Assembly (NCBI GenBank): GCA_037893245.1
Contig: JBAIAA010000543.1
Coordinates: 1,240,001-1,304,000, forward strand
From: Crossaster papposus
Lineage: Eukaryota; Echinodermata; Asteroidea; Velatida; Solasteridae
DNA length: 64,000 bases
Direction of reading: 5' to 3'
In this document: positions 1 to 64,000 of the stretch, one piece after another
How the letters are laid out: every line of letters starts with the position of its first letter
Position numbering within the stretch: the first letter of the stretch is position 1
Made by a program: the position numbers and the translations under genes
Notes under the pieces: model-generated
What the model was told of the DNA's origin: nothing
The model's database searches: none
What the model saw: the letters and a program-made list of their open reading frames with translations, nothing else

Positions 1-31
1 TAAGAAATATGTAAAGGGAAAGAAGTGTGCA
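1..31 (+). repeat. Exemplar of the 31-bp S module
   Basis: First full S unit of the window, shown here in the phase beginning TAAG. Taken in the phase used for the array, S is AAATA followed by 26 bp: TGT, the purine block AAAGGGAAAGAAG, then GTGTGCATAAG (the last G precedes the next AAATA). It contains the mirror-symmetric AAAGGGAAA, no CpG and a single C. Frequent variants are GTATGCAT for GTGTGCAT (creating an NsiI site), CATCAG or CATACG for CATAAG, and GGGTAAG for GGGAAAG. The unit at about 32-62 carries AAAGCGAAAG. Roughly three quarters to four fifths of all modules in the window are S. Confidence 0.97.
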
Positions 32-97
32 TAAGAAATATGTAAAGCGAAAGAAGTGTGCATAAGAAATATGTAAAGGGAAAGAAGTGTGCATAAG

Positions 98-133
98 AAA
101 TAAACACCTGATGTCGGAACAAGCCCTCGAGTT
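98..133 (+). repeat. Exemplar of the 36-bp L module
   Basis: First L module. It is AAATA (98-102) plus a 31-bp core (103-133) that starts AACACCTGATG and ends CTCGAGTT; the next AAATA (134-138) begins the following S. The core shows no similarity by eye to S. It holds the only CpGs of the array (in GTCGG and CTCGAG) and an XhoI site. Variants: GGAACAGGCCC for GGAACAAGCCC (several domains), TAGACACC for TAAACACC (mostly beyond 57 kb), GGAGC (52-55 kb) and GATGTTGG (24-29 kb). The XhoI site is lost in a few copies, for example near 1266, 39435 and 56488. Confidence 0.96.
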
Positions 134-484
134 AAATATGTAAAGGGAAAGAAGTGTGCATAAGAAATAAACACCTGATGTCGGAACAAGCCCTCGAGTT
201 AAATATGTAAAGGGAAAGAAGTGTGCATAAGAAATATGTAAAGGGAAAGAAGTGTGCATAAGAAATATGTAAAGGGAAAGAAGTGTGCATAAGAAATATG
301 TAAAGGGAAAGAAGTGTGCATAAGAAATATGTAAAGGGAAAGAAGTGTGCATAAGAAATAAACACCTGATGTCGGAACAAGCCCTCGAGTTAAATATGTA
401 AAGGGATAGAAGTGTGCATAAGAAATATGTAAAGGGAAAGAAGTGTGCATAAGAAATATGTAAAGGGAAAGAAGTGTGCATAAG

Positions 485-820
485 AAATAAACACCTGATG
501 TCGGAACAAGCCCTCGAGTTAAATATGTAAAGGGAAAGAAGTGTGCATAAGAAATAAACACCTGATGTCGGAACAAGCCCTCGAGTTAAATATGTAAAGG
601 GAAAGAAGTGTGCATAAGAAATAAACACCTGATGTCGGAACAGGCCCTCGAGTTAAATATGTAAAGGGAAAGAAGTGTGCATAAGAAATAAACACCTGAT
701 GTCGGAACAAGCCCTCGAGTTAAATATGTAAAGGGAAAGAAGTGAGCATAAGAAATAAACACCTGATGTCGGAACAAGCCCTCGAGTTAAATATGTAAAG
801 GGAAAGAAGTGTGAATAAGA
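485..820 (+). repeat. Run of consecutive 67-bp L-S units
   Basis: Here L and S alternate strictly, giving a 67-bp periodicity over five successive units. Similar runs of five lie at about 1,036-1,372 and 2,079-2,414, with others at 5,887-6,220, 15,625-15,960 and 18,120-18,455. They are the densest L clusters and are nearly confined to domain A. They behave as fixed landmarks of the higher-order unit, because the same run recurs at the same place in each copy. Confidence 0.9.
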
Positions 821-1828
821 AATATGTAAAGGGAAAGAAGTGTGCATAAGAAATATGTAAAGGGAAAGAAGTGTGCATAAGAAATATGTAAAGGGAAAGA
901 AGTGTGCATAAGAAATATGTAAAGGGAAAGAAGTGTGCATAAGAAATATGTAAAGGGAAAGAAGTGTGCATAAGAAATATGTAAAGGGAAAGAAGTGTGC
1001 ATAAGAAATATGTAAAGGGAAAGAAGTGTGCATAAGAAATAAACACCTGATGTCGGAACAAGCCCTCGAGTTAAATATGTAAAGGGAAAGAAGTGTGCAT
1101 AAGAAATAAACACCTGATGTCGGAACAAGCCCTCGAGTTAAATATGTAAAGGGAAAGAAGTGTGCATAAGAAATAAACACCTGATGTCGGAACAAGCCCT
1201 CGAGTTAAATATGTAAAGGGAAAGAAGTGTGCATAAGAAATAAACACCTGATGTCGGAACAAGCCCCCGAGTTAAATATGTAAAGGGAAAGAAGTGTGCA
1301 TAAGAAATAAACACCTGATGTCGGAACAAGCCCTCGAGTTAAATATGTAAAGGGAAAGAAGTGTGCATAAGAAATATGTAAAGGGAAAGAAGTGTGCATA
1401 AGAAATATGTAAAGGGAAAGAAGTGTGCATAAGAAATATGTAAAGGGAAAGAAGTGTGCATAAGAAATAAACACCTGATGTCGGAACAAGCCCTCGAGTT
1501 AAATATGTAAAGGGAAAGAAGTGTGCATAAGAAATATGTAAAGGGAAAGAAGTGTGCATAAGAAATATGTAAAGGGAAAGAAGTGTGCATAAGAAATAAA
1601 CACCTGATGTCGGAACAAGCCCTCGAGTTAAATATGTAAAGGGAAAGAAGTGTGCATAAGAAATAAACACCTGATGTCGGAACAAGCCCTCGAGTTAAAT
1701 ATGTAAAGGGAAAGAAGTGTGCATAAGAAATAAACACCTGATGTCGGAACAGGCCCTCGAGTTAAATATGTAAAGGGAAAGAAGTGTGCATAAGAAATGA
1801 ACACCTGATGTCGGAACAAGCCCTCGAG

Positions 1829-4800
1829 TTAAATATGTAAAGGGAAAGAAGTGTGCATAAGAAATATGTAAAGGGTAAGAAGTGTGCATAAGAAATATGT
1901 AAAGGGAAAGAAGTGTGCATAAGAAATATGTAAAGGGAAAGAAGTGTGCATAAGAAATATGTAAAGGGAAAGAAGTGTGCATAAGAAATATGTAAAGGGA
2001 AAGAAGTGTGCATAAGAAATATGTAAAGGGAAAGAAGTGTGCATAAGAAATATGTAAAGGGAAAGAAGTGTGCATAAGAAATAAACACCTGATGTCGGAA
2101 CAAGCCCTCGAGTTAAATATGTAAAGGGAAAGAAGTGTGCATAAGAAATAAACACCTGATGTCGGAACAAGCCCTCGAGTTAAATATGTAAAGGGAAAGA
2201 AGTGTGCATAAGAAATAAACACCTGATGTCGGAACAAGCCCTCGAGTTAAATATGTAAAGGGAAAGAAGTGTGCATAAGAAATAAACACCTGATGTCGGA
2301 ACAAGCCCTCGAGTTAAATATGTAAAGGGAAAGAAGTGTGCATAAGAAATACACACCTGATGTCGGAACAAGCCCTCGAGTTAAATATGTAAAGGGAAAG
2401 AAGTGTGCATAAGAAATATGTAAAGGGAAAGAAGTGTGCATAAGAAATATGTAAAGGGAAAGAAGTGTGCATAAGAAATATGTAAAGGGAAAGAAGTGTG
2501 CATAAGAAATAAACACCTGATGTCGGAACAAGCCCTCGAGTTAAATATGTAAAGTGAAAGAAGTGTGCATAAGAAATATGTAAAGGGAAAGAAGTGTGCA
2601 TAAGAAATATGTAAAGGGAAAGTAGTGTGCATAAGAAATAAACACCTGATGTCGGAACAAGCCCTCGAGTTAAATATGTAAAGGGAAAGAAGTGTGCATA
2701 AGAAATATGTAAAGGGAAAGAAGTGTGCATAAGAAATAAACACCTGATGTCGGAACAAGCCCTCGAGTTAAATATGTAAAGGGAAAGAAGTGTGCATAAG
2801 AAATAAACACCTGATGTCGGAACAAGCCCTCGAGTTAAATATGTAAAGGGAAAGAAGTGTGCATAAGAAATAAACACCTGATGTCGGAACAAGCCCTCGA
2901 GTTAAATATGTAAAGGGAAAGAAGTGTGCATAAGAAATAAACACCTGATGTCGGAACAGGCCCTCGAGTTAAATATGTAAAGGGAAAGAAGTGTGCATAA
3001 GAAATAAACACCTGATGTCGGAACAGGCCCTCGAGTTAAATATGTAAAGGGAAAGAAGTGTGCATAAGAAATAAACACCTGATGTCGGAACAAGCCCTCG
3101 AGTTAAATATGTAAAGGGAAAGAAGTGTGCATAAGAAATATGTAAAGGGAAAGAAGTGTGCATAAGAAATAAACACCTGATGTCGGAACAAGCCCTCGAG
3201 TTAAATATGTAAAGGGAAAGAAGTATGCATAAGAAATATGTAAAGGGAAAGAAGTGTGCATAAGAAATAAACACCTGATGTCGGAACAAGCCCTCGAGTT
3301 AAATATGTAAAGGGAAAGAAGTATGCATAAGAAATATGTAAAGGGAAAGAAGTGTGCATAAGAAATAAACACCTGATGTCGGAACAAGCCCTCGAGTTAA
3401 ATATGTAAAGGGAAAGAAGTGTGCATAAGAAATATGTAAAGGGAAAGAAGTGTGCATAAGAAATAAACACCTGATGTCGGAACAAGCCCTCGAGTTAAAT
3501 ATGTAAAGGGAAAGAAGTGTGCATAAGAAATATGTAAAGGGAAAGAAGTGTGCATAAGAAATAAACACCTAATGTCGGAACAAGCCCTCGAGTTAAATAT
3601 GTAAAGGGAAAGAAGTGTGCATAAGAAATATGTAAAGGGAAAGAAGTGTGCATAAGAAATATGTAAAGGGAAAGAAGTGTGCATAAGAAATATGTAAAGG
3701 GAAAGAAGTGTGCATAAGAAATAAACACCTGATGTCGGAACAAGCCCTCGAGTTAAATATGTAAAGGGAAAGAAGTGTGCATAAGAAATATGTAAAGGGA
3801 AAGAAGTGTGCATAAGAAATATGTAAAGGGAAAGAAGTGTGCATAAGAAATATGTAAAGGGAAAGAAGTGTGCATAAGAAATATGTAAAGGGAAAGAAGT
3901 GTGCATAAGAAATAAACACCTGATGTCGGAACAAGCCCTCGAGTTAAATATGTAAAGGGAAAGAAGTGTGCATAAGAAATATGTAAAGGGAAAGAAGTGT
4001 GCATAAGAAATAAACACCTGATGTCGGAACAGGCCCTCGAGTTAAATATGTAAAGGGAAAGAAGTGTGCATAAGAAATATGTAAAGGGAAAGAAGTGTGC
4101 ATAAGAAATAAACACCTGATGTCGGAACAAGCCCTCGAGTTAAATATGTAAAGGGAAAGAAGTGTGCATAAGAAATATGTAAAGGGAAAGAAGTGTGCAT
4201 AAGAAATATGTAAAGGGAAAGAAGTGTGCATAAGAAATATGTAAAGGGAAAGAAGTGTGCATAAGAAATACACACCTGATGTCGGAACAAGCCCTCGAGT
4301 TAAATATGTAAAGGGAAAGAAGTATGCATAAGAAATATGTAAAGGGAAAGAAGTGTGCATAAGAAATATGTAAAGGGAAAGAAGTGTGCATAAGAAATAT
4401 GTAAAGGGAAAGAAGTGTGCATAAGAAATAAACACCTGATGTCGGAACAAGCCCTCGAGTTAAATATGTAAAGGGAAAGAAGTGTGCATAAGAAATATGT
4501 AAAGGGAAAGAAGTGTGCATAAGAAATAAACACCTGATGTCGGAACAAGCCCTCGAGTTAAATATGTAAAGGGAAAGAAGTGTGCATAAGAAATATGTAA
4601 AGGGAAAGAAGTGTGCATAAGAAATAAACACCTGATGTCGGAACAAGCCCTCGAGTTAAATATGTAAAGGGAAAGAAGTGTGCATAAGAAATATGTAAAG
4701 GGAAAGAAGTGTGCATAAGAAATATGTAAAGGGAAAGAAGTGTGCATAAGAAATATGTAAAGGGAAAGAAGTGTGCATAAGAAATATGTAAAGGGAAAGA

Positions 4801-5636: not shown

Positions 5637-6054
5637 TTAAATATGTAAAGGGAAAGAAGTGTGCATAAGAAATATGTAAAGGGTAAGAAGTGTGCATAAG
5701 AAATATGTAAAGGGAAAGAAGTGTGCATAAGAAATATGTAAAGGGAAAGAAGTGTGCATAAGAAATATGTAAAGGGAAAGAAGTGTGCATAAGAAATATG
5801 TAAAGGGAAAGAAGTGTGCATAAGAAATATGTAAAGGGAAAGAAGTGTGCATAAGAAATATGTAAAGGGAAAGAAGTGTGCATAAGAAATAAACACCTGA
5901 TGTCGGAACAAGCCCTCGAGTTAAATATGTAAAGGGAAAGAAGTGTGCATACGAAATAAACACCTGATGTCGGAACAAGCCCTCGAGTTAAATATGTAAA
6001 GGGAAAGAAGTGTGCATAAGAAATAAACACCTGATGTCGGAACAAGCCCTCGAG

Positions 6055-8561
6055 TTAAATATGTAAAGGGAAAGAAGTGTGCATAAGAAATAAACACCTG
6101 ATGTCGGAACAAGCCCTCGAGTTAAATATGTAAAGGGAAAGAAGTGTGCATAAGAAATAAACACCTGATGTCGGAACAAGCCCTCGAGTTAAATATGTAA
6201 AGGGAAAGAAGTGTGCATAAGAAATATGTAAAGGGAAAGAAGTGTGCATAAGAAATATGTAAAGGGAAAGAAGTGTGCATAAGAAATATGTAAAGGGAAA
6301 GAAGTGTGCATAATAAATAAACACCTGATGTCGGAACAAGCCCTCGAGTTAAATATGTAAAGGGAAAGAAGTGTGCATAAGAAATATGTAAAGGGAAAGA
6401 AGTGTGCATAAGAAATATGTAAAGGGAAAGTAGTGTGCATAAGAAATAAACACCTGATGTCGGAACAAGCCCTCGAGTTAAATATGTAAAGGGAAAGAAG
6501 TGTGCATAAGAAATATGTAAAGGGAAAGAAGTGTGCATAAGAAATAAACACCTGATGTGGGAACAAGCCCTCGAGTTAAATATGTAAAGGGAAAGAAGTG
6601 TGCATAAGAAATAAACACCTGATGTCGGAACAAGCCCTCGAGTTAAATATGTAAAGGGAAAGAAGTGTGCATAAGAAATAAACACCTGATGTCGGAACAA
6701 GCCCTCGAGTTAAATATGTAAAGGGAAAGAAGTGCGCATAAGAAATATGTAAAGGGAAAGAAGTGTGCATAAGAAATAAACACCTGATGTCGGAACAAGC
6801 CCTCGAGTTAAATATGTAAAGGGAAAGAAGTGTGCATAAGAAATAAACACCTGATGTCGGAACAGGCCCTCGAGTTAAATATGTAAAGGGAAAGAAGTGT
6901 GCATAAGAAATAAACACCTGATGTCGGAACAGGCCCTCGAGTTAAATATGTAAAGGGAAAGAAGTGTGCATAAGAAATAAACACCTGATGTCGGAACAAG
7001 CCCTCGAGTTAAATATGTAAAGGGAAAGAAGTGCGCATAAGAAATATGTAAAGGGAAAGAAGTGTGCATAAGAAATAAACACCTGATGTCGGAACAAGCC
7101 CTCGAGTTAAATATGTAAAGGGAAAGAAGTATGCATAAGAAATATGTAAAGGGAAAGAAGTGTGCATAAGAAATAAACACCTGATGTCGGAACAAGCCCT
7201 CGAGTTAAATATGTAAAGGGAAAGAAGTATGCATAAGAAATATGTAAAGGGAAAGAAGTGTGCATAAGAAATAAACACCTGATGTCGGAACAAGCCCTCG
7301 AGTTAAATATGTAAAGGGAAAGAAGTGTGCATAAGAAATATGTAAAGGGAAAGAAGTGTGCATAAGAAATAAACACCTGATGTCGGAACAAGCCCTCGAG
7401 TTAAATATGTAAAGGGAAAGAAGTGTGCATAAGAAATATGTAAAGGGAAAGAAGTGTGCATAAGAAATAAACACCTGATGTCGGAACAAGCCCTCGAGTT
7501 AAATATGTAAAGGGAAAGAAGTGTGCATAAGAAATATGTAAAGGGAAAGAAGTGTGCATAAGAAATATGTAAAGGGAAAGAAGTGTGCATAAGAAATATG
7601 TAAAGGGAAAGAAGTGTGCATAAGAAATAAACACCTGATGTCGGAACAAGCCCTCGAGTTAAATATGTAAAGGGAAAGAAGTGTGCATAAGAAATATGTA
7701 AAGGGAAAGAAGTGTGCATAAGAAATATGTAAAGGGAAAGAAGTGTGCATAAGAAATATGTAAAGGGAAAGAAGTGTGCATAAGAAATATGTAAAGGGAA
7801 AGAAGTGTACATAAGAAATAAACACCTGATGTCGGAACAAGCCCTCGAGTTAAATATGTAAAGGGAAAGAAGTGTGCATAAGAAATATGTAAAGGGAAAG
7901 AAGTGTGCATAAGAAATAAACACCTGATGTCGGAACAGGCCCTCGAGTTAAATATGTAAAGGGAAAGAAGTGTGCATAAGAAATATGTAAAGGGAAAGAA
8001 GTGTGCATAATAAATAAACACCTGATGTCGGAACAAGCCCTCGAGTTAAATATGTAAAGGGAAAGAAGTGTGCATAAGAAATATGTAAAGGGAAAGAAGT
8101 GTGCATAAGAAATATGTAAAGGGAAAGAAGTGTGCATAAGAAATATGTAAAGGGAAAGAAGTGTGCATAAGAAATAAACACCTGATGTCGGAACAAGCCC
8201 TCGAGTTAAATATGTAAAGGGAAAGAAGTATGCATAAGAAATATGTAAAGGGAAAGAAGTGTGCATAAGAAATATGTAAAGGGAAAGAAGTGTGCATAAG
8301 AAATATGTAAAGGGAAAGAAGTGTGCATAAGAAATAAACACCTGATGTCGGAACAAGCCCTCGAGTTAAATATGTAAAGGGAAAGAAGTGTGCATAAGAA
8401 ATATGTAAAGGGAAAGAAGTGTGCATAAGAAATAAACACCTGATGTCGGAACAAGCCCTCGAGTTAAATATGTAAAGGGAAAGAAGTGTGCATAAGAAAT
8501 ATGTAAAGGGAAAGAAGTGTGCATAAGAAATAAACACCTGATGTCGGAACAAGCCCTCGAG
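6055..8561 (+). repeat. 2,507-bp higher-order unit, left copy (domain A)
   Basis: Tandem partner of 8562-11068. All L positions from 6055 to about 8350 recur 2507 bp downstream, and private variants are shared: TAATAAATAAAC near 6311 and 8818, GATGTGGG near 6556 and 9063, GTGCGCAT near 6733 and 9240, GTGTACAT near 7807 and 10314. Sharing many rare variants means the duplication is recent compared with the age of the array. Unit edges are set by repeat phase and are arbitrary by one or more modules. Confidence 0.9.
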
Positions 8562-11068
8562 TTAAATATGTAAAGGGAAAGAAGTGTGCATAAGAAATAA
8601 ACACCTGATGTCGGAACAAGCCCTCGAGTTAAATATGTAAAGGGAAAGAAGTGTGCATAAGAAATAAACACCTGATGTCGGAACAAGCCCTCGAGTTAAA
8701 TATGTAAAGGGAAAGAAGTGTGCATAAGAAATATGTAAAGGGAAAGAAGTGTGCATAAGAAATATGTAAAGGGAAAGAAGTGTGCATAAGAAATATGTAA
8801 AGGGAAAGAAGTGTGCATAATAAATAAACACCTGATGTCGGAACAAGCCCTCGAGTTAAATATGTAAAGGGAAAGAAGTGTGCATAAGAAATATGTAAAG
8901 GGAAAGAAGTGTGCATAAGAAATATGTAAAGGGAAAGTAGTGTGCATAAGAAATAAACACCTGATGTCGGAACAAGCCCTCGAGTTAAATATGTAAAGGG
9001 AAAGAAGTGTGCATAAGAAATATGTAAAGGGAAAGAAGTGTGCATAAGAAATAAACACCTGATGTGGGAACAAGCCCTCGAGTTAAATATGTAAAGGGAA
9101 AGAAGTGTGCATAAGAAATAAACACCTGATGTCGGAACAAGCCCTCGAGTTAAATATGTAAAGGGAAAGAAGTGTGCATAAGAAATAAACACCTGATGTC
9201 GGAACAAGCCCTCGAGTTAAATATGTAAAGGGAAAGAAGTGCGCATAAGAAATATGTAAAGGGAAAGAAGTGTGCATAAGAAATAAACACCTGATGTCGG
9301 AACAAGCCCTCGAGTTAAATATGTAAAGGGAAAGAAGTGTGCATAAGAAATAAACACCTGATGTCGGAACAGGCCCTCGAGTTAAATATGTAAAGGGAAA
9401 GAAGTGTGCATAAGAAATAAACACCTGATGTCGGAACAGGCCCTCGAGTTAAATATGTAAAGGGAAAGAAGTGTGCATAAGAAATAAACACCTGATGTCG
9501 GAACAAGCCCTCGAGTTAAATATGTAAAGGGAAAGAAGTGCGCATAAGAAATATGTAAAGGGAAAGAAGTGTGCATAAGAAATAAACACCTGATGTCGGA
9601 ACAAGCCCTCGAGTTAAATATGTAAAGGGAAAGAAGTATGCATAAGAAATATGTAAAGGGAAAGAAGTGTGCATAAGAAATAAACACCTGATGTCGGAAC
9701 AAGCCCTCGAGTTAAATATGTAAAGGGAAAGAAGTATGCATAAGAAATATGTAAAGGGAAAGAAGTGTGCATAAGAAATAAACACCTGATGTCGGAACAA
9801 GCCCTCGAGTTAAATATGTAAAGGGAAAGAAGTGTGCATAAGAAATATGTAAAGGGAAAGAAGTGTGCATAAGAAATAAACACCTGATGTCGGAACAAGC
9901 CCTCGAGTTAAATATGTAAAGGGAAAGAAGTGTGCATAAGAAATATGTAAAGGGAAAGAAGTGTGCATAAGAAATAAACACCTGATGTCGGAACAAGCCC
10001 TCGAGTTAAATATGTAAAGGGAAAGAAGTGTGCATAAGAAATATGTAAAGGGAAAGAAGTGTGCATAAGAAATATGTAAAGGGAAAGAAGTGTGCATAAG
10101 AAATATGTAAAGGGAAAGAAGTGTGCATAAGAAATAAACACCTGATGTCGGAACAAGCCCTCGAGTTAAATATGTAAAGGGAAAGAAGTGTGCATAAGAA
10201 ATATGTAAAGGGAAAGAAGTGTGCATAAGAAATATGTAAAGGGAAAGAAGTGTGCATAAGAAATATGTAAAGGGAAAGAAGTGTGCATAAGAAATATGTA
10301 AAGGGAAAGAAGTGTACATAAGAAATAAACACCTGATGTCGGAACAAGCCCTCGAGTTAAATATGTAAAGGGAAAGAAGTGTGCATAAGAAATATGTAAA
10401 GGGAAAGAAGTGTGCATAAGAAATAAACACCTGATGTCGGAACAGGCCCTCGAGTTAAATATGTAAAGGGAAAGAAGTGTGCATAAGAAATATGTAAAGG
10501 GAAAGAAGTGTGCATAATAAATAAACACCTGATGTCGGAACAAGCCCTCGAGTTAAATATGTAAAGGGAAAGAAGTGTGCATAAGAAATATGTAAAGGGA
10601 AAGAAGTGTGCATAAGAAATATGTAAAGGGAAAGAAGTGTGCATAAGAAATATGTAAAGGGAAAGAAGTGTGCATAAGAAATAAACACCTGATGTCGGAA
10701 CAAGCCCTCGAGTTAAATATGTAAAGGGAAAGAAGTATGCATAAGAAATATGTAAAGGGAAAGAAGTGTGCATAAGAAATATGTAAAGGGAAAGAAGTGT
10801 GCATAAGAAATATGTAAAGGGAAAGAAGTGTGCATAAGAAATAAACACCTGATGTCGGAACAAGCCCTCGAGTTAAATATGTAAAGGGAAAGAAGTGTGC
10901 ATAAGAAATATGTAAAGGGAAAGAAGTGTGCATAAGAAATAAACACCTGATGTCGGAACAAGCCCTCGAGTTAAATATGTAAAGGGAAAGAAGTGTGCAT
11001 AAGAAATATGTAAAGGGAAAGAAGTGTGCATAAGAAATAAACACCTGATGTCGGAACAAGCCCTCGAG
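8562..11068 (+). repeat. 2,507-bp higher-order unit, right copy (domain A)
   Basis: Right-hand copy of the 2,507-bp tandem duplication (53 S + 24 L). It matches the left copy in L pattern and in rare variants up to about 10.86 kb. After that the sequence moves into an S-rich stretch that instead matches 13.3-13.8 kb, marking the far edge of the duplicated block. Confidence 0.9.
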
Positions 11069-27952: not shown

Positions 27953-30900
27953 TTAAATATGTAAAGGGAAAGAAGTATGCATAAGAAATATGTAAAGGGA
28001 AAGAAGTGTGCATAAGAAATATGTAAAGGGAAAGAAGTGTGCATAAGAAATATGTAAAGGGAAAGAAGTGTGCATAAGAAATATGTAAAGGGAAAGAAGT
28101 GTGCATAAGAAATATGTAAAGGGAAAGAAGTGTGCATAAGAAATAAACACCTGATGTCGGAACAAGCCCTCGAGTTAAATATGTAAAGGGAAAGAAGTGT
28201 GCATAAGAAATATGTAAAGGGAAAGAAGTGTGCATAAGAAATATGTAAAGGGAAAGAAGTGTGCATAAGAAATATGTAAAGGGAAAGAAGTGTGCATAAG
28301 AAATAAACACCTGATGTTGGAACAAGCCCTCGAGTTAAATATGTAAAGGGAAAGAAGTGTGCATAAGAAATAAACACCTGATGTCGGAACAAGCCCTCGA
28401 GTTAAATATGTAAAGGGAAAGAAGTGTGCATAAGAAATATGTAAAGGGAAAGAAGTGTGCATAAGAAATATGTAAAGGGAAAGAAGTGTGCATAAGAAAT
28501 ATGTAAAGGGAAAGAAGTGTGCATAAGAAATAAACACCTGATGTCGGAACAAGCCCTCGAGTTAAATATGTAAAGGGAAAGAAGTGTGCATAAGAAATAA
28601 ACACCTGATGTTGGAACAAGCCCTCGAGTTAAATATGTAAAGGGAAAGAAGTGTGCATAAGAAATATGTAAAGGGAAAGAAGTGTGCATAAGAAATATGT
28701 AAAGGGAAAGAAGTGTGCATAAGAAATAAACACCTGATGTCGGAACAAGCCCTCGAGTTAAATATGTAAAGGGAAAGAAGTGTGCATAAGAAATAAACAC
28801 CTGATGTCGGAACAAGCCCTCGAGTTAAATATGTAAAGGGAAAGAAGTGTGCATAAGAAATATGTAAAGGGAAAGAAGTGTGCATAAGAAATATGTAAAG
28901 GGAAAGAAGTGTGCATAAGAAATATGTAAAGGGAAAGAAGTGTGCATAAGAAATATGTAAAGGGAAAGAAGTGTGCATAAGAAATAAGTAAAGGGAAAGA
29001 AGTGTGCATAAGAAATAAACACCTGATGTCGGAACAAGCCCTCGAGTTAAATATGTAAAGGGAAAGAAGTGTGCATAAGAAATAAACACCTGATGTCGGA
29101 ACAAGCCCTCGAGTTAAATATGTAAAGTGAAAGAAGTGTGCATAAGAAATAAACACCTGATGTCGGAACAAGCCCTCGAGTTAAATATGTAAAGGGAAAG
29201 AAGTGTGCATAAGAAATATGTAAAGGGAAAGAAGTGTGCATAAGAAATATGTAAAGGGAAAGAAGTGTGCATAAGAAATAAACACCTGATGTCGGAACAA
29301 GCCCTCGAGTTAAATATGTAAAGGGAAAGAAGTGTGCATAAGAAATATGTAAAGGGAAAGAAGTGTGCATAAGAAATATGTAAAGGGAAAGAAGTGTGCA
29401 TAAGAAATATGTAAAGGGAAAGAAGTGTGCATAAGAAATAAACACCTGATGTCGGAACAAGCCCTCGAGTTAAATATGTAAAGGGAAAGAAGTGTGCATA
29501 AAAAATAAACACCTGATGTCGGAACAAGCCCTCGAGTTAAATATGTAAAGGGAAAGAAGTGTGCATAAGAAATATGTAAAGGGAAAGAAGTGTGCATCAG
29601 AAATAAACACCTGATGTCGGAACAAGCCCTCGAGTTAAATATGTAAAGGGAAAGAAGTGTGCATAAGAAATATGTAAAGGGAAAGAAGTGTGCATAAGAA
29701 ATATGTAAAGGGAAAGAAGTGTGCATAAGAAATATGTAAAGGGAAAGAAGTGTGCATAAGAAATAAACACCTGATGTCGGAACAAGCCCTCGAGTTAAAT
29801 ATGTAAAGGGAAAGAAGTATGCATAAGAAATATGTAAAGGGAAAGAAGTGTGCATAAGAAATATGTAAAGGGAAAGAAGTGTGCATAAGAAATATGTAAA
29901 GGGAAAGAAGTGTGCATAAGAAATATGTAAAGGGAAAGAAGTGTGCATAAGAAATATGTAAAGGGAAAGAAGTGTGCATAAGAAATATGTAAAGGGAAAG
30001 AAGTGTGCATAAGAAATATGTAAAGGGAAAGAAGTGTGCATAAGAAATATGTAAAGGGAAGAAGTGTGCATAAAAAATATGTAAAGGGAAAGAAGTGTGC
30101 ATAAGAAATATGTAAAGGGAAAGAAGTGTGCATAAGGAATATGTAAAGGGAAAGAAGTGTGCATAAGAAATAAACACCTGATGTCGGAACAAGCCCTCGA
30201 GTTAAATATGTAAAGGGAAAGAAGTATGCATAAGAAATATGTAAAGGGAAAGAAGTGTGCATAAGAAATATGTAAAGGGAAAGAAGTGTGCATAAGAAAT
30301 ATGTAAAGGGAAAGAAGTGTGCATAAGAAATATGTAAAGGGAAAGAAGTGTGCATAAGAAATATGTAAAGGGAAAGAAGTGTGCATAAGAAATAAACACC
30401 TGATGTCGGAACAAGCCCTCGAGTTAAATATGTAAAGGGAAAGAAGTGTGCATAAGAAATATGTAAAGGGAAAGAAGTGTGCATAAGAAATATGTAAAGG
30501 GAAAGAAGTGTGCATAAGAAATATGTAAAGGGAAAGAAGTGTGCATAAGAAATAAACACCTGATGTCGGAACAAGCCCTCGAGTTAAATATGTAAAGGGA
30601 AAGAAGTGTGCATAAGAAATAAACACCTGATGTCGGAACAAGCCCTCGAGTTAAATATGTAAAGGGAAAGAAGTGTGCATAAGAAATATGTAAAGGGAAA
30701 GAAGTGTGCATAAGAAATATGTAAAGGGAAAGAAGTGTGCATAAGAAATATGTAAAGGGAAAGAAGTGTGCATAAGAAATAAACACCTGATGTCGGAACA
30801 AGCCCTCGAGTTAAATATGTAAAGGGAAAGAAGTGTGCATAAGAAATAAACACCTGATGTCGGAACAAGCCCTCGAGTTAAATATGTAAAGGGAAAGAAG

Positions 30901-31604
30901 TGTGCATAAGAAATATGTAAAGGGAAAGAAGTGTGCATAAGAAATATGTAAAGGGAAAGAAGTGTGCATAAGAAATATGTAAAGGGAAAGAAGTGTGCAT
31001 AAGAAATATGTAAAGGGAAAGAAGTGTGCATAAGAAATATGTAAAGGGAAAGAAGTGTGCATAAGAAATATGTAAAGGGAAAGAAGTGTGCATAAGAAAT
31101 ATGTAAAGGGAAAGAAGTGTGCATAAGAAATAAACACCTGATGTCGGAACAAGCCCTCGAGTTAAATATGTAAAGGGAAAGAAGTATGCATAAGAAATAT
31201 GTAAAGGGAAAGAAGTGTGCATAAGAAATATGTAAAGGGAAAGAAGTGTGCATAAGAAATATGTAAAGGGAAAGAAGTGTGCATAAGAAATATGTAAAGG
31301 GAAAGAAGTGTGCATAAGAAATATGTAAAGGGAAAGAAGTGTGCATAAGAAATATGTAAAGGGAAAGAAGTGTGCATAAGAAATATGTAAAGGGAAAGAA
31401 GTGTGCATAAGAAATATGTAAAGGGAAGAAGTGTGCATAAAAAATATGTAAAGGGAAAGAAGTGTGCATAAGAAATATGTAAAGGGAAAGAAGTGTGCAT
31501 AAGGAATATGTAAAGGGAAAGAAGTGTGCATAAGAAATAAACACCTGATGTCGGAACAAGCCCTCGAGTTAAATATGTAAAGGGAAAGAAGTATGCATAC
31601 AAAA
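27953..31604 (+). repeat. 3,652-bp higher-order unit, right copy (domain B)
   Basis: Right copy of the 3,652-bp tandem duplication. Its collinearity with the left copy fades after about 30,900, where shorter 1,367- and 1,996-bp repeats of the same material begin. The GATTTTGG variant near 24,889 of the left copy is absent from the matching site here, so the copies have since diverged slightly. Confidence 0.88.
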
Positions 31605-40600: not shown

Positions 40601-40877
40601 AACAAGCCCTCGAGTTAAATATGTAAAGGGAAAGAAGTATGCATAAGAAATAAACACCTGATGTCGGAACAAGCCCTCGAGTTAAATATGTAAAGGGAAA
40701 GAAGTGTGCATAAGAAATAAACACCTGATGTCGGAACAGGCCCTCGAGTTAAATATGTAAAGGGAAAGAAGTGTGCATAAGAAATATGTAAAGGGAAAGA
40801 AGTGTGCATAAGAAATATGTAAAGGGAAAGAAGTGTGCATAAGAAATAAACACCTGATGTCGGAACAAGCCCTCGAG

Positions 40878-49510: not shown

Positions 49511-51727
49511 AGAAGTGTGCATAAGAAATATGTAAAGGGAAAGAAGTGTGCATAAGAAATATGTAAAGGGAAAGAAGTGTGCATAAGAAATATGTAAAGG
49601 GAAAGAAGTGTGCATAAGAAATAAACACCTGATGTCGGAACAAGCCCTCGAGTTAAATATGTAAAGGGAAAGAAGTGTGCATAAGAAATAAACACCTGAT
49701 GTCGGAACAAGCCCTCGAGTTAAATATGTAAAGGGAAAGAAGTGTGCATAAGAAATAAACACCTGATGTCGGAACAAGCCCTCGAGTTAAATATGTAAAG
49801 GGAAAGAAGTGTGCATAAGAAATATGTAAAGGGAAAGAAGTGTGCATAAGAAATATGTAAAGGGAAAGAAGTGTGCATAAGAAATAAACACCTGATGTCG
49901 GAACAAGCCCTCGAGTTAAATATGTAAAGGGAAAGAAGTGTGCATAAGAAATAAACACCTGATGTCGGAACAAGCCCTCGAGTTAAATATGTAAAGGGAA
50001 AGAAGTGTGCATAAGAAATATGTAAAGGGAAAGAAGTGTGCATACGAAATATGTAAAGGGAAAGAAGTGTGCATAAGAAATATGTAAAGGGAAAGAAGTG
50101 TGCATAAGAAATATGTAAAGGGAAAGAAGTGTGCATAAGAAATATGTAAAGGGAAAGAAGTGTGCATAAGAAATATGTAAAGGGAAAGAAGTGTGCATAA
50201 GAAATATGTAAAGGGAAAGAAGTGTGCATAAGAAATATGTAAAGGGAAAGAAGTGTGCATAAGAAATATGTAAAGGGAAAGAAGTGTGCATAAGAAATAT
50301 GTAAAGGGAAAGAAGTGTGCATAAGAAATATGTAAAGGGAAAGAAGTGTGCATAAGAAATATGTAAAGGGAAAGAAGTGTGCATAAGAAATATGTAAAGG
50401 GAAAGAAGTGTGCATAAGAAATATGTAAAGGGAAAGAAGTGTGCATAAGAAATATGTAAAGGGAAAGAAGTGTGCATAAGAAATAAACACCTGATGTCGG
50501 AACAAGCCCTCGAGTTAAATATGTAAAGGGAAAGAAGTGTGCATAAGAAATAAACACCTGATGTCGGAACAAGCCCTCGAGTTAAATATGTAAAGGGAAA
50601 GAAGTGTGCATAAGAAATATGTAAAGGGAAAGAAGTGTGCATCAGAAATATGTAAAGGGAAAGAAGTGTGCATAAGAAATATGTAAAGGGAAAGAAGTGT
50701 GCATAAGAAATATGTAAAGGGAAAGAAGTGTGCATAAGAAATATGTAAAGGGAAAGAAGTGTGCATAAGAAATATGTAAAGGGAAATAAGTGTGCATAAG
50801 AAATAAACACCTGATGTCGGAACAAGCCCTCGAGTTAAATATGTAAAGGGAAAGAAGTGTGCATAAGAAATATGTAAAGGGAAAGAAGTGTGCATCAGAA
50901 ATAAACACCTGATGTCGGAACAAGCCCTCGAGTTAAATATGTAAAGGGAAAGAAGTGTGCATAAGAAATATGTAAAGGGAAAGAAGTGTGCATAAGAAAT
51001 ATGTAAAGGGAAAGAAGTGTGCATAAGAAATATGTAAAGGGAAAGAAGTGTGCATAAGAAATATGTAAAGGGAAATAAGTGTGCATAAGAAATAAACACC
51101 TGATGTCGGAACAAGCCCTCGAGTTAAATATGTAAAGGGAAAGAAGTGTGCATAAGAAATATGTAAAGGGAAAGAAGTGTGCATAAGAAATATGTAAAGG
51201 GAAAGAAGTGTGCATCAGAAATAAACACCTGATGTCGGAACAAGCCCTCGAGTTAAATATGTAAAGGGAAAGAAGTGTGCATAAGAAATATGTAAAGGGA
51301 AAGAAGTGTGCATAAGAAATATGTAAAGGGAAAGAAGTGTGCATAAGAAATATGTAAAGGGAAAGAAGTGTGCATAAGAAATATGTAAAGGGAAAGAAGT
51401 GTGCATAAGAAATATGTAAAGGGAAAGAAGTGTGCATACGAAATATGTAAAGGGAAAGAAGTGTGCATAAGAAATAAACACCTGATGTCGGAACAAGCCC
51501 TCGAGTTAAATATGTAAAGGGAAAGAAGTGTGCATAAGAAATATGTAAAGGGAAAGAAGTGTGCATCAGAAATATGTAAAGGGAAAGAAGTGTGCATAAG
51601 AAATATGTAAAGGGAAAGAAGTGTGCATAAGAAATATGTAAAGGGAAAGAAGTGTGCATAAGAAATATGTAAAGGGAAAGAAGTGTGCATAAGAAATAAA
51701 CACCTGATGTCGGAACAAGCCCTCGAG

Positions 51728-53301
51728 TTAAATATGTAAAGGGAAAGAAGTGTGCATAAGAAATAAACACCTGATGTCGGAACAAGCCCTCGAGTTAAAT
51801 ATGTAAAGGGAAAGAAGTGTGCATAAGAAATAAACACCTGATGTCGGAACAAGCCCTCGAGTTAAATATGTAAAGGGAAAGAAGTGTGCATAAGAAATAT
51901 GTAAAGGGAAAGAAGTGTGCATAAGAAATATGTAAAGGGAAAGAAGTGTGCATAAGAAATATGTAAAGGGAAAGAAGTGTGCATAAGAAATATGTAAAGG
52001 GAAAGAAGTGTGCATAAGAAATATGTAAAGGGAAAGAAGTGTGCATAAGAAATAAACACCTGATGTCGGAACAAGCCCTCGAGTTAAATATGTAAAGGGA
52101 AAGAAGTGTGCATAAGAAATAAACACCTGATGTCGGAGCAAGCCCTCGAGTTAAATATGTAAAGGGAAAGAAGTGTGCATAAGAAATATGTAAAGGGAAA
52201 GAAGTGTGCATAAGAAATATGTAAAGGGAAAGAAGTGTGCATAAAAAATAAACACCTGATGTCGGAACAAGCCCTCGAGTTAAATATGTAAAGGGAAAGA
52301 AGTGTGCATAAGAAATATGTAAAGGGAAAGAAGTGTGCATAAGAAATATGTAAAGGGAAAGAAGTGTGCATAAGAAATATGTAAAGGGAAAGAAGTGTGC
52401 ATAAGAAATATGTAAAGGAAAAGAAGTGTGCATAAGAAATAAACACCTGATGTCGGAACAAGCCCTCGAGTTAAATATGTAAAGGGAAAGAAGTGTGCAT
52501 AAGAAATAAACACCTGGTGTCGGAACAAGCCCTCGAGTTAAATATGTAAAGGGAAAGAAGTGTGCATAAGAAATATGTAAAGGGAAAGAAGTGTGCATAA
52601 GAAATATGTAAAGGGAAAGAAGTGTGCATAAGAAATATGTAAAGGGAAAGAAGTGTGCATAAGAAATATGTAAAGGGAAAGAAGTGTGCATAAGAAATAA
52701 ACACCTGATGTCGGAACAAGCCCTCGAGTTAAATATGTAAAGGGAAAGAAGTGTGCATAAGAAATAAACACCTGATGTCGGAACAAGCCCTCGAGTTAAA
52801 TATGTAAAGGGAAAGAAGTGTGCATAAGAAATATGTAAAGGGAAAGAAGTGTGCATAAGAAATATGTAAAGGGAAAGAAGTGTGCATAAGAAATATGTAA
52901 AGGGAAAGAAGTGTGCATAAGAAATATGTAAAGGGAAAGAAGTGTGCATAAGAAATATGTAAAGGGAAAGAAGTGTGCATAAGAAATATGTAAAGGGAAA
53001 GAAGTGTGCATAAGAAATATGTAAAGGGAAAGAAGTGTGCATAAGAAATAAACACCTGATGTCGGAACAAGCCCTCGAGTTAAATATGTAAAGGGAAAGA
53101 AGTGTGCATAAGAAATATGTAAAGGGAAAGAAGTGTGCATCAGAAATATGTAAAGGGAAAGAAGTGTGCATAAGAAATATGTAAAGGGAAAGAAGTGTGC
53201 ATAAGAAATATGTAAAGGGAAAGAAGTGTGCATAAGAAATATGTAAAGGGAAAGAAGTGTGCATAAGAAATAAACACCTGATGTCGGAACAAGCCCTCGA
53301 G
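51728..53301 (+). repeat. Domain D higher-order unit, copy 1 (1,574 bp)
   Basis: First of four successive copies of one unit (38 S + 11 L). Three private markers identify it: GTCGGAGC in L (52134), AAAGGAAAAG in S (near 52,415) and CCTGGTGTC in L (52513). All three recur in copies 2 and 3 at offsets of 1574 and then 1285. Confidence 0.92.
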
Positions 53302-57156: not shown

Positions 57157-57925
57157 TTAAATATGTAAAGGGAAAGAAGTGTGCATAAGAAATAAACACC
57201 TGATGTCGGAACAAGCCCTCGAGTTAAATATGTAAAGGGAAAGAAGTGTGCATAAGAAATATGTAAAGGGAAAGAAGTGTGCATAAGAAATATGTAAAGG
57301 GAAAGAAGTGTGCATAAGAAATATGTAAAGGGAAAGAAGTGTGCATAAGAAATATGTAAAGGGAAAGAAGTGTGCATAAGAAATATGTAAAGGGAAAGAA
57401 GTGTGCATAAGAAATATGTAAAGGGAAAGAAGTGTGCATAATAAATAGACACCTGATGTCGGAACAAGCCCTCGAGTTAAATATGTAAAGGGAAAGAAGT
57501 GTGCATAAGAAATATGTAAAGGGAAAGAAGTGTGCATAAGAAATATGTAAAGGGAAAGAAGTGTGCATAAGAAATAAACACCTGATGTCGGAACAAGCCC
57601 TCGAGTTAAATATGTAAAGGGAAAGAAGTGTGCATAAGAAATATGTAAAGGGAAAGAAGTGTGCATAAGAAATATGTAAAGGGAAAGAAGTGTGCATAAG
57701 AAATATGTAAAGGGAAAGAAGTGTGCATAAGAAATATGTAAAGGGAAAGAAGTGTGCATACGAAATAGACACCTGATGTCGGAACAAGCCCTCGAGTTAA
57801 ATATGTAAAGGGAAAGAAGTGTGCATAAGAAATATGTAAAGGGAAAGAAGTGTGCATAAGAAATATATAAAGGGAAAGAAGTGTGCATAAGAAATAAACA
57901 CCTGATGTCGGAACAAGCCCTCGAG

Positions 57926-60614
57926 TTAAATATGTAAAGGGAAAGAAGTGTGCATAAGAAATATGTAAAGGGAAAGAAGTGTGCATAAGAAATATGTAAA
58001 GGGAAAGAAGTGTGCATAAGAAATATGTAAAGGGAAAGAAGTGTGCATAAGAAATATGTAAAGGGAAAGAAGTGTGCATAAGAAATATGTAAAGGGAAAG
58101 AAGTGTGCATAAGAAATATGTAAAGGGAAAGAAGTGTGCATAAGAAATATGTAAAGGGAAAGAAGTGTGCATAAGAAATAGACACCTGATGTCGGAACAA
58201 GCCCTCGAGTTAAATATGTAAAGGGAAAGAAGTGTGCATAAGAAATATGTAAAGGGAAAGAAGTGTGCATAAGAAATAAACACCTGATGTCGGAACAAGC
58301 CCTCGAGTTAAATATGTAAAGGGAAAGAAGTGTGCATCAGAAATAAACACCTGATGTCGGAACAAGCCCTCGAGTTAAATATGTAAAGGGAAAGAAGTGT
58401 GCATAAGAAATAAACACCTGATGTCGGAACAAGCCCTCGAGTTAAATATGTAAAGGGAAAGAAGTGTGCATAAGAAATAAACACCTGATGTCGGAACAAG
58501 CCCTCGAGTTAAATATGTAAAGGGAAAGAAGTGTGCATAAGAAATATGTAAAGGGAAAGAAGTGTGCATAAGAAATATGTAAAGGGAAAGAAGTGTGCAT
58601 AAGAAATATGTAAAGGGAAAGAAGTGTGCATAAGAAATATGTAAAGGGAAAGAAGTGTGCATAAGAAATAGACACCTGATGTCGGAACAAGCCCTCGAGT
58701 TAAATATGTAAAGGGAAAGAAGTGTGCATAAGAAATATGTAAAGGGAAAGAAGTGTGCATAAGAAATATATAAAGGGAAAGAAGTGTGCATAAGAAATAA
58801 ACACCTGATGTCGGAACAAGCCCTCGAGTTAAATATGTAAAGGGAAAGAAGTGTGCATAAGAAATATGTAAAGGGAAAGAAGTGTGCATAAGAAATATGT
58901 AAAGGGAAAGAAGTGTGCATAAGAAATATGTAAAGGGAAAGAAGTGTGCATAAGAAATATGTAAAGGGAAAGAAGTGTGCATAAGAAATATGTAAAGGGA
59001 AAGAAGTGTGCATAAGAAATATGTAAAGGGAAAGAAGTGTGCATAAGAAATATGTAAAGGGAAAGAAGTGTGCATAAGAAATATACACCTGATGTCGGAA
59101 CAAGCCCTCGAGTTAAATATGTAAAGGGAAAGAAGTGTGCATAAGAAATAAACACCTGATGTCGGAACAAGCCCTCGAGTTAAATATGTAAAGGGAAAGA
59201 AGTGTGCATAAGAAATATGTAAAGGGAAAGAAGTGTGCATAAGAAATAAACACCTGATGTCGGAACAAGCCCTCGAGTTAAATATGTAAAGGGAAAGAAG
59301 TGTGCATCAGAAATAAACACCTGATGTCGGAACAAGCCCTCGAGTTAAATATGTAAAGGGAAAGAAGTGTGCATAAGAAATAAACACCTGATGTCGGAAC
59401 AAGCCCTCGAGTTAAATATGTAAAGGGAAAGAAGTGTGCATAAGAAATAAACACCTGATGTCGGAACAAGCCCTCGAGTTAAATATGTAAAGGGAAAGAA
59501 GTGTGCATAAGAAATATGTAAAGGGAAAGAAGTGTGCATAAGAAATATGTAAAGGGAAAGAAGTGTGCATAAGAAATATGTAAAGGGAAAGAAGTGTGCA
59601 TAAGAAATATGTAAAGGGAAAGAATTGTGCATCAGAAATATGTAAAGGGAAAGAAGTGTGCATCAGAAATATGTAAAGGGAAAGAAGTGTGCATAAGAAA
59701 TATGTAAAGGGAAAGAAGTGTGCATAAGAAATATGTAAAGGGAAAGAAGTGTGCATAGGAAATATGTAAAGGGAAAGAAGTGTGCATAAGAAATATGTAA
59801 AGGGAAAGAAGTGTGCATAAGAAATATGTAAAGGGAAAGAAGTGTGCATAAGAAATATGTAAAGGGAAAGAAGTGTGCATAAGAAATATGTAAAGGGAAA
59901 GAAGTGTGCATAAGAAATAAACACCTGATGTCGGAACAAGCCCTCGAGTTAAATATGTAAAGGGAAATAAGTGTGCATAAGAAATATGTAAAGGGAAAGA
60001 AGTGTGCATAAGAAATATGTAAAGGGAAAGAAGTGTGCATACGAAATAAACACCTGATGTCGGAACAAGCCCTCGAGTTAAATATGTAAAGGGAAAGAAG
60101 TGTGCATAAGAAATATGTAAAGGGAAAGAAGTGTGCATAAGAAATATGTAAAGGGAAAGAAGTGTACATAAGAAATATGTAAAGGGAAAGAAGTGTGCAT
60201 AAGAAATATGTAAAGGGAAAGAAGTGTGCATAAGAAATATGTAAAGGGAAAGAAGTGTGCATAAGAAATATGTAAAGGGAAAGAAGTGTGCATAAGAAAT
60301 ATGTAAAGGGAAAGAAGTGTGCATAAGAAATATGTAAAGGGAAAGAAGTGTGCATAAGAAATATGTAAAGGGAAAGAAGTGTGCATAAGAAATATGTAAA
60401 GGGAAAGAAGTGTGCATTTGAAATATGTAAAGGGAAAGAAGTGTGCATACGAAATAGACACCTGATGTCGGAACAAGCCCTCGAGTTAAATATGTAAAGG
60501 GAAAGAAGTGTGCATAAGAAATATGTAAAGGGAAAGAAGTGTGCATCAGAAATATATAAAGGGAAAGAAGTGTGCATAAGAAATAAACACCTGATGTCGG
60601 AACAAGCCCTCGAG
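57926..60614 (+). repeat. 2,689-bp higher-order unit, left copy (domain E)
   Basis: Contains 67 S + 17 L. L positions at 57,926, 58,308, 58,375, 58,442, 58,509, 58,829, 59,278, 59,345, 59,412 and 60,078 all recur 2689 bp downstream, as do TAGACACC (58179, 58669), TATACACC near 59,092 and the paired CATCAG modules near 59,632 and 59,663. A CATTTGAAAT module near 60,416 is private to this copy. Confidence 0.91.
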
Positions 60615-63303
60615 TTAAATATGTAAAGGGAAAGAAGTGTGCATAAGAAATATGTAAAGGGAAAGAAGTGTGCATAAGAAATATGTAAAGGGAAAGAAGT
60701 GTGCATAAGAAATATGTAAAGGGAAAGAAGTGTGCATAAGAAATATGTAAAGGGAAAGAAGTGTGCATAAGAAATATGTAAAGGGAAAGAAGTGTGCATA
60801 AGAAATATGTAAAGGGAAAGAAGTGTGCATAAGAAATATGTAAAGGGAAAGAAGTGTGCATAAGAAATAGACACCTGATGTCGGAACAAGCCCTCGAGTT
60901 AAATATGTAAAGGGAAAGAAGTGTGCATAAGAAATATGTAAAGGGAAAGAAGTGTGCATAAGAAATAAACACCTGATGTCGGAACAAGCCCTCGAGTTAA
61001 ATATGTAAAGGGAAAGAAGTGTGCATCAGAAATAAACACCTGATGTCGGAACAAGCCCTCGAGTTAAATATGTAAAGGGAAAGAAGTGTGCATAAGAAAT
61101 AAACACCTGATGTCGGAACAAGCCCTCGAGTTAAATATGTAAAGGGAAAGAAGTGTGCATAAGAAATAAACACCTGATGTCGGAACAAGCCCTCGAGTTA
61201 AATATGTAAAGGGAAAGAAGTGTGCATAAGAAATATGTAAAGGGAAAGAAGTGTGCATAAGAAATATGTAAAGGGAAAGAAGTGTGCATAAGAAATATGT
61301 AAAGGGAAAGAAGTGTGCATAAGAAATATGTAAAGGGAAAGAAGTGTGCATAAGAAATAGACACCTGATGTCGGAACAAGCCCTCGAGTTAAATATGTAA
61401 AGGGAAAGAAGTGTGCATAAGAAATATGTAAAGGGAAAGAAGTGTGCATAAGAAATATATAAAGGGAAAGAAGTGTGCATAAGAAATAAACACCTGATGT
61501 CGGAACAAGCCCTCGAGTTAAATATGTAAAGGGAAAGAAGTGTGCATAAGAAATATGTAAAGGGAAAGAAGTGTGCATAAGAAATATGTAAAGGGAAAGA
61601 AGTGTGCATAAGAAATATGTAAAGGGAAAGAAGTGTGCATAAGAAATATGTAAAGGGAAAGAAGTGTGCATAAGAAATATGTAAAGGGAAAGAAGTGTGC
61701 ATAAGAAATATGTAAAGGGAAAGAAGTGTGCATAAGAAATATGTAAAGGGAAAGAAGTGTGCATAAGAAATATACACCTGATGTCGGAACAAGCCCTCGA
61801 GTTAAATATGTAAAGGGAAAGAAGTGTGCATAAGAAATAAACACCTGATGTCGGAACAAGCCCTCGAGTTAAATATGTAAAGGGAAAGAAGTGTGCATAA
61901 GAAATATGTAAAGGGAAAGAAGTGTGCATAAGAAATAAACACCTGATGTCGGAACAAGCCCTCGAGTTAAATATGTAAAGGGAAAGAAGTGTGCATCAGA
62001 AATAAACACCTGATGTCGGAACAAGCCCTCGAGTTAAATATGTAAAGGGAAAGAAGTGTGCATAAGAAATAAACACCTGATGTCGGAACAAGCCCTCGAG
62101 TTAAATATGTAAAGGGAAAGAAGTGTGCATAAGAAATAAACACCTGATGTCGGAACAAGCCCTCGAGTTAAATATGTAAAGGGAAAGAAGTGTGCATAAG
62201 AAATATGTAAAGGGAAAGAAGTGTGCATAAGAAATATGTAAAGGGAAAGAAGTGTGCATAAGAAATATGTAAAGGGAAAGAAGTGTGCATAAGAAATATG
62301 TAAAGGGAAAGAATTGTGCATCAGAAATATGTAAAGGGAAAGAAGTGTGCATCAGAAATATGTAAAGGGAAAGAAGTGTGCATAAGAAATATGTAAAGGG
62401 AAAGAAGTGTGCATAAGAAATATGTAAAGGGAAAGAAGTGTGCATAGGAAATATGTAAAGGGAAAGAAGTGTGCATAAGAAATATGTAAAGGGAAAGAAG
62501 TGTGCATAAGAAATATGTAAAGGGAAAGAAGTGTGCATAAGAAATATGTAAAGGGAAAGAAGTGTGCATAAGAAATATGTAAAGGGAAAGAAGTGTGCAT
62601 AAGAAATAAACACCTGATGTCGGAACAAGCCCTCGAGTTAAATATGTAAAGGGAAATAAGTGTGCATAAGAAATATGTAAAGGGAAAGAAGTGTGCATAA
62701 GAAATATGTAAAGGGAAAGAAGTGTGCATACGAAATAAACACCTGATGTCGGAACAAGCCCTCGAGTTAAATATGTAAAGGGAAAGAAGTGTGCATAAGA
62801 AATATGTAAAGGGAAAGAAGTGTGCATAAGAAATATGTAAAGGGAAAGAAGTGTGCATAAGAAATATGTAAAGGGAAAGAAGTGTGCATAAGAAATATGT
62901 AAAGGGAAAGAAGTGTGCATAAGAAATATGTAAAGGGAAAGAAGTGTGCATAAGAAATATGTAAAGGGAAAGAAGTGTGCATAAGAAATATGTAAAGGGA
63001 AAGAAGTGTGCATAAGAAATATGTAAAGGGAAAGAAGTGTGCATAAGAAATATGTAAAGGGAAAGAAGTGTGCATAAGAAATAGACACCTGATGTCGGAA
63101 CAAGCCCTCGAGTTAAATATGTAAAGGGAAAGAAGTGTGCATAAGAAATAAACACCTGATGTCGGAACAAGCCCTCGAGTTAAATATGTAAAGGGAAAGA
63201 AGTGTGCATAAGAAATATGTAAAGGGAAAGAAGTGTGCATAAGAAATATGTAAAGGGAAAGAAGTGTGCATAAGAAATATGTAAAGGGAAAGAAGTGTGC
63301 ATA
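60615..63303 (+). repeat. 2,689-bp higher-order unit, right copy (domain E)
   Basis: Right copy of the domain E duplication, with TAGACACC at 60868 and 61358, TATACACC near 61,772 and paired CATCAG modules near 62,321 and 62,352. Collinearity with the left copy holds at least to about 62,770. Confidence 0.9.
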
Positions 63304-64000
63304 AGAAATATGTAAAGGGAAAGAAGTGTGCATAAGAAATATGTAAAGGGAAAGAAGTGTGCATAAGAAATATGTAAAGGGAAAGAAGTGTGCATAAGAA
63401 ATAGACACCTGATGTCGGAACAAGCCCTCGAGTTAAATATGTAAAGGGAAAGAAGTGTGCATAAGAAATATGTAAAGGGAAAGAAGTGTGCATAAGAAAT
63501 ATGTAAAGGGAAAGAAGTGTGCATAAGAAATAAACACCTGATGTCGGAACAAGCCCTCGAGTTAAATATGTAAAGGGAAAGAAGTGTGCATAAGAAATAT
63601 GTAAAGGGAAAGAAGTGTGCATAAGAAATATGTAAAGGGAAAGAAGTGTGCATAAGAAATATGTAAAGGGAAAGAAGTGTGCATAAGAAATAAACACCTG
63701 ATGTCGGAACAAGCCCTCGAGTTAAATATGTAAAGGGAAAGAAGTGTGCATAAGAAATATGTAAAGGGAAAGAAGTGTGCATAAGAAATATGTAAAGGGA
63801 AAGAAGTGTGCATAAGAAATATGTAAAGGGAAAGAAGTGTGCATAAGAAATATGTAAAGGGAAAGAAGTGTGCATAAGAAATAGACACCTGATGTCGGAA
63901 CAAGCCCTCGAGTTAAATATGTAAAGGGAAAGAAGTGTGCATAAGAAATATGTAAAGGGAAAGAAGTGTGCATAAGAAATATATAAAGGGAAAGAAGTGT

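Follow-up and report, generated by a model that had tools for sequence, protein, structure and literature searches.

A satellite of Crossaster papposus composed of two modules, one of which never adjoins another copy of itself

The window, a stretch of 64,000 nucleotides of contig C543 (C543:1240001-1304000) in the Crossaster papposus assembly, is occupied from end to end by tandem copies of two short modules, here called S and L. A dynamic programming parse, in which the next module was chosen freely and an LL junction carried no penalty, accounted for 64,000/64,000 bases as 1,995 modules, 1,556 of them S (31 bp) and 439 L (36 bp, 22%), all in one orientation and without interruption (Table 1). 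This agrees with a preliminary description of the same DNA, which had read it as a string of some 2,000 modules, both kinds beginning with AAATA and about one in five being L. No module of the window diverges from its consensus at more than three places, and 1,295 of the 1,556 S and 361 of the 439 L are identical to it. Truncated modules are absent, the sole internal length change being that of six S of 30 bp.

Table 1. Features of the two-module array in the window (positions are those of the window)
Feature	Position	Strand	Basis
Two-module satellite array, uninterrupted, 1,995 modules	1..64000	+	Dynamic-programming parse
Module L, example, 36 bp, AAATAAACACCTGATGTCGGAACAAGCCCTCGAGTT, CTCGAG at 126-131	98..133	+	Sequence; consensus used in the parse
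Module S, example, 31 bp, AAATATGTAAAGGGAAAGAAGTGTGCATAAG	134..164	+	Sequence; 1,295 S of the window identical
80-module block, exact second copy at 8497, 77 modules on	5990..8594	+	Module-identity scan
61-module block, exact second copy from 31633	29637..31570	+	Module-identity scan
39-module block, exact second copy from 53015	51441..52694	+	Module-identity scan
71-module block, exact second copy from 60550	57861..60141	+	Module-identity scan

AAATA opens both S and L and again follows both. On sequence comparison the two modules have no detectable similarity beyond these first five bases: 1,421 of 2,000 shuffles reach the score of the alignment of S with L, and 1,928 of 2,000 do so when AAATA is left out. 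An alignment no better than shuffles leaves a common ancestry of S and L unsupported. The array is satellite DNA, made of near-identical units arranged head to tail, present in high copy number and homogenised within arrays; exact S alone occurs 1,081,420 times (606,437 + 474,983) in the 1.02-Gb genome. It is not a HOR in the alpha-satellite sense, the window having no single fixed multi-monomer unit throughout, and the best lag in the window, 77 modules, matches 7.6% of the rarer variants.

The 1,994 junctions of the window comprise 1,116 SS, 439 SL, 439 LS and no LL, whereas random order would give 96.4 LL and the lowest of 2,000 permutations contains 70. Spacings between CTCGAG sites agree, since their minimum, 67 bp, is also the commonest (163 of 435), so that no 36-bp spacing exists in the window. 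The preliminary description had remarked both that LL was missing where dozens would be expected and that the smallest L-to-L distance was 67 bp; both remarks hold, and the first applies to the entire genome, in which the LL junction was found neither with a 30-base pattern at up to one mismatch nor with a 27-base pattern at up to three mismatches that also accepts a C/A variant of L. By comparison, 30 bases of the LS junction at up to one mismatch occur 140,442 times (77,198 + 63,244). Genome counting of this kind may skip very common words; the LS pattern, equally common, was counted. LL is also absent from the 2,887 junctions, involving 476 L, of 24 stretches beyond the window, which total 95,168 bases; samples L045 and L046 have about 290 of these in common, and sample L020 includes a poorly matching L of 28 bp. 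This set excludes samples L001-L008, which lie within L019, the overlapping samples L037, L040 and L044, and L035, which contains only a third module, M. The absence of LL is thus confirmed as real, and it extends past the window to the whole genome. Counting copies overstates the surprise because the copies are not independent; the relevant quantity is the rate at which new neighbour pairs are created.

Several apparent sources of LL were rejected. The end of L plus AAATA precedes a non-T base in 672 copies genome-wide, and the ten of these 672 that were read are S modules with an altered sixth base. Spurious LL pairs appeared in samples L026 and L032, where other satellites had been forced into S and L, in L051, which had been parsed with too few modules, and in L046, which had been read on the wrong strand; these samples were dropped or re-parsed.

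The 438 internal runs of S depart from the geometric model against which the preliminary description had proposed to compare them (chi-square 57.1, and no more than 42.0 in any of 2,000 simulations), with an excess of runs of 1 (166, 123.9 expected), of 8 (20, 12.1 expected) and of 11 or more (30, about 15 expected), and a deficit of runs of 2 (64, 88.8 expected) and of 9 and 10 (3, 14.9 expected). Neighbouring runs are correlated, their mutual information being 0.56 as compared with a mean of 0.28 and a maximum of 0.36 in 500 shuffles. Successive runs being correlated and large blocks duplicated (Table 1), a special run-length rule is unneeded, and block copying would be enough to account for the non-geometric runs. 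S variants adjoining L travel together with it: G23A stands immediately after L in 46 of its 49 copies and A29C immediately before L in 35 of 44. The preliminary description had proposed that L does not spread freely by slippage or recombination at AAATA and that it travels as an L-S pair or larger block. Both parts of this proposal stand: L does not spread freely at the 5-bp AAATA, and its movement in larger blocks is visible in the linked variants and the exact block copies. A nucleosome rule, suggested by L modules lying about 146 bp apart on average (64,000/439), was discarded, as the density of L varies widely among arrays.

In contig C543 the S/L array was found in eight samples, at 1.10, 1.15, 1.20, 1.23-1.314, 1.35 and 1.40 Mb (the window plus samples L015, L016 and L027-L031). 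Among the S copies of these samples are some of 33 bp that start with ATATATATG (nine in L015, one in L028 and two in L029), and two L copies in L029 end with an additional AT. A 219-bp satellite lies on both sides of the array in the samples, at 1.05 Mb and at the contig end; its period was obtained by TRF in L014, and it was recognised in L026 and L032 by reading. An 86-bp satellite was seen in samples L014 and L022. The contig starts (C543:1-10000, sample L009) with a tandem repeat, about 1.8 kb, whose open frame we take, from its reading, to encode histone H1.

The same contig carries another satellite, with units of two lengths intermingled, which we read in three 10-kb stretches (L010-L012, at 0.2, 0.4 and 0.6 Mb). 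Its 75-bp unit consists of the 64-bp unit plus 11 bp, the 64 bp being common to both, and for this reason unlike units can exchange. Pairs of long units make up 119 of its 433 junctions. Their numbers, compared with 1,000 shuffles of each stretch, fall short of the mean in L010, where they equal the minimum (55; mean 62.1, range 55-69), and exceed the maximum in both L011 (23; mean 13.3, range 6-21) and L012 (41; mean 30.6, range 19-40). The order of this satellite is therefore non-random too, but long-long pairs are common in it, and so the missing LL is not a general feature of the mixed-length satellites of this genome. Short and long units form locally regular patterns in these stretches.

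Other arrays of the S/L family were read in contigs chosen, non-randomly, from search matches for S or L, and each has its own set of neighbours. C12 is almost pure S with rare L, and C57 contains S runs plus L. C10 and C27 have the structure (M+ K (SL)+)n, in which M has 43 bp and K has 45 bp; C10 opens with a stretch of M alone. C123 (sample L050), mostly M-K-S-L alternating with M-K-S-L-S-L, is closer to a HOR than the window is. The pairs of C10, C27 and C123 are LM, MK, KS, SL and LS, together with MM in C10 and C27; SS is absent, S never being doubled in the samples of these three contigs. In the four stretches with M and K, SS numbers 0, as against 1.5 to 4.4 in each by shuffling, and KK, MS, ML, SM, LK, KM, KL and SK are likewise all 0. 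C146 and one part of C158 contain only SL and LS pairs, the other part of C158 has SL with a 54-bp module q between S and L at intervals, and C82 (sample L051) is built of a unit of about 195 bp, S-Q-L. Sample L048 combines in one stretch SL units with and without q, which is a short form of Q. Judging from these sequences, the S-Q-L unit of C82 may either have given rise to the 67-bp SL unit or have been derived from it. Altogether, 12 of the 36 ordered pairs of the six module forms were seen in the 24 stretches outside the window.

L is present in all nine contigs compared, contigs that had been picked by their matches to S or L, and its consensus divides them into four groups: C543; C57 and C12; C10, C27 and C123; and C146, C158 and C82 (that of C12 being based on two 3-kb samples). 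SS occurs in two of these groups, namely C543 and the pair C57 and C12. Since it is found in contigs with two consensus forms of L, SS is either old or has arisen more than once.

Junctions of unlike modules share a short common motif of 5-6 bp: S and L are flanked by copies of AAATA, and Q by two copies of AGAAAT. Pairs of a new kind appear to have formed at such borders. The SM pair is not in the arrays that we read, yet it has 101 copies genome-wide (up to two mismatches), and would be derivable from S-L-M by loss of L between AAATA copies. The 100 SM matches listed fall in 10 contigs, and among them one series of spacings (3583, 1648, 2035, 1992, 2311, in either direction) is common to C555, C625, C922 and C965 and a second one to C878 and C1025, as expected from few origins followed by block copying; contigs with common spacings may be haplotypes of a single place or the outcome of large, recent duplication. 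C82 contributes a further kind of new pair, two Q-S junctions without L and without the start of S.

Taken with the small sets of neighbours in the other arrays, these data lead us to consider it quite probable that LL is missing by history, in a satellite copied by exchange between like modules. Arrays would turn over by unequal crossing-over or conversion, with S pairing with S and L with L because the two have no usable homology outside AAATA. Such exchange would alter module numbers, and every neighbour pair in its product would already have existed, so that neighbour pairs would be passed on like inherited characters. From its beginnings L probably formed part of a larger unit (SL, S-Q-L or M-K-S-L) and would therefore never have had L as its right neighbour. 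New pairs would come only from rare events at the 5-6 bp direct repeats on module borders, to be copied afterwards: L lost between two AAATA would yield S-S or S-M, and Q lost between AGAAAT repeats would convert S-Q-L into SL. S-S probably arose by a loss of this kind, which would have allowed runs of S, whereas L-L would never have arisen, or would not have survived. What we infer is that the copying takes place by exchange, which way the changes went, and that LL is missing by history rather than by selection.

Simulations are consistent with this historical reading. They were abstract, with parameters of our own choice, and started with one L in an array of S, conditioned on the survival of L; runs were kept if they ended with an L fraction of 0.12-0.35 and at least 60 L. 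With exchange between like modules only, LL was 0 in all 13 runs kept out of 300, the mean S run being 3.05 with 48% runs of 1 (3.54 and 38% observed). With type-blind exchange, LL was 0 in none of the 19 runs kept out of 300. Accepting 1% of unlike exchanges gave LL = 0 in 13 of 19 kept runs, and 0.3% in 16 of 19; therefore, LL = 0 in one array excludes frequent, though not rare, exchange at AAATA. An earlier simulation that started from (SL)n gave LL = 0 in 12 of 12 runs with like-only exchange and LL in 10 of 12 with type-blind exchange, and was set aside in favour of the single-L start, as the founding S-S was lost in all 12 like-only runs.

The new pairs themselves weigh against history. 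Pairs without the intervening L can form at AAATA (SM and probably SS), and the mirror event, dropping S, should be possible as well; it is unseen beside some 140,000 L. Two pair-making events to none fits a historical origin of the gap, without amounting to proof, and does not call for selection. The same asymmetry speaks for an active exclusion of LL, in which adjacent L modules would be harmful or unstable, for example as a putative protein-binding site in L whose spacing matters and that must not be doubled, or as a fragile tract, and would be removed by instability or selection: LL numbers 0 beside the 140,442 LS, while SM, derivable by loss of L at the very same 5-bp repeat, has 101 copies. 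The array would then obey a functional spacing rule and not just an inherited order. We think such exclusion unlikely. Selection against LL, which the preliminary description had held out as an alternative, is unneeded given the outcome of the like-only simulations (13 of 13 kept runs); missing pairs are usual in this family, as SS, KK and the other pairs absent from the M/K stretches illustrate; and L modules 31 bp apart are evidently tolerated, the 67-bp L-to-L spacing being the commonest of the window.

Slightly less probable still is an origin of L, as also of Q or M-K, by insertion of a short element with target-site duplication (AAATA for L, AGAAAT for Q), LL being missing because the element did not insert beside itself. 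The position of L between two AAATA and of Q between two AGAAAT is what insertion with duplication leaves behind, and sample L048 has SL units that contain the short form of Q beside others that lack it. However, loss of a segment between direct repeats predicts the same marks, and the ends of the L insert pair weakly as inverted repeats (by reading); the presence of L in all nine contigs also speaks against insertion, weakly so because these contigs were picked by S or L matches. Loss and the gain of an insert with duplication leave identical marks, for Q as well as for L, so that the change may have gone in either direction. Collapse or mis-joining of the repeat array during assembly is very improbable as the origin of the missing pair: in its favour are the 1,841 contigs of the assembly and the length and homogeneity of the array, but mis-joins would add new pairs rather than remove one, LL is missing throughout the assembly, and the window contains just six S of 30 bp and not a single truncated module.

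Partial parallels exist in other animals. In the nematodes Meloidogyne chitwoodi and M. fallax, the published account describes unrelated short satellites combined in HOR arrays with short conserved junction motifs of 17 and about 20 bp, one of them CENP-B-box-like, and simple and composite arrays that coexist; it proposes the motifs as sites of illegitimate recombination and of cut-and-paste insertion (PMC3694981). The Crossaster arrays resemble these in having unlike modules in one array and a short common junction motif; the motif at the module borders measures by our reading only 5-6 bp, and in the window, instead of one fixed HOR, the runs vary while the neighbours stay fixed. In Cercopithecus solatus, the alpha-satellite families C3 and C4 are found only in dimers (PMC5109768), which is likewise a case of monomer families occurring only in mutual association; alpha monomers belong to one homologous family, whereas S and L, of 31 and 36 bp, are not detectably homologous. 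The Ac4p1 satellite of the scallop Adamussium colbecki has a repeat of about 33 bp with some longer units, which are ascribed to exchange or slippage among subrepeats (PMC5874043). It shares with the S/L array a short repeat with longer units interspersed, although its longer units contain more subrepeat copies and those of the S/L array are a second, unrelated module. The preliminary description had not seen this mixed-string organisation described for a named satellite; arrays of mixed modules with restricted neighbours do have precedents (PMC3694981, PMC5109768), although exact pieces of the modules, sought as unbroken strings, occur in none of the paper texts searched, in which sequences that are broken or placed in figures or supplements would escape. 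A literature search requiring several terms jointly, for 31-bp, 36-bp, 67-bp or XhoI satellites, gave no match, and a 27-base piece of S had no exact match in viral and prokaryote collections.

With modules that have fixed sets of neighbours specific to each array, and with apparent intermediates (S-Q-L, S-q-L, SL and runs of S), the creation of satellite units may be readable step by step in this family. Two processes that are usually mixed would here be separated, a frequent like exchange that keeps the order and rare events at 5-6 bp that make it, and counts of neighbour pairs could provide an estimate of the rare border-repeat events relative to like exchange.

Some observations were made elsewhere in the assembly. 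COX1 of the mitochondrial contig reads best with NCBI code 9, the echinoderm code, so that an echinoderm host is most likely on this evidence as well; judged by conserved residues, AAA presumably stands for Asn, AGA for Ser, ATA for Ile and TGA for Trp. A cluster of tRNA genes directly precedes this COX1, an arrangement reminiscent of the inverted gene order found in sea stars and brittle stars. Contig C8, of more than 5.2 Mb, has two COX1-type places that the standard code reads without meeting an internal stop, one of them in two overlapping pieces, and is perhaps that of a bacterial associate or a contaminant. Sample L021 (C50:50001-60000) contains open frames that by their reading presumably encode histones H2A and H2B, with a long reverse-transcriptase-like frame, also recognised by reading, near them.
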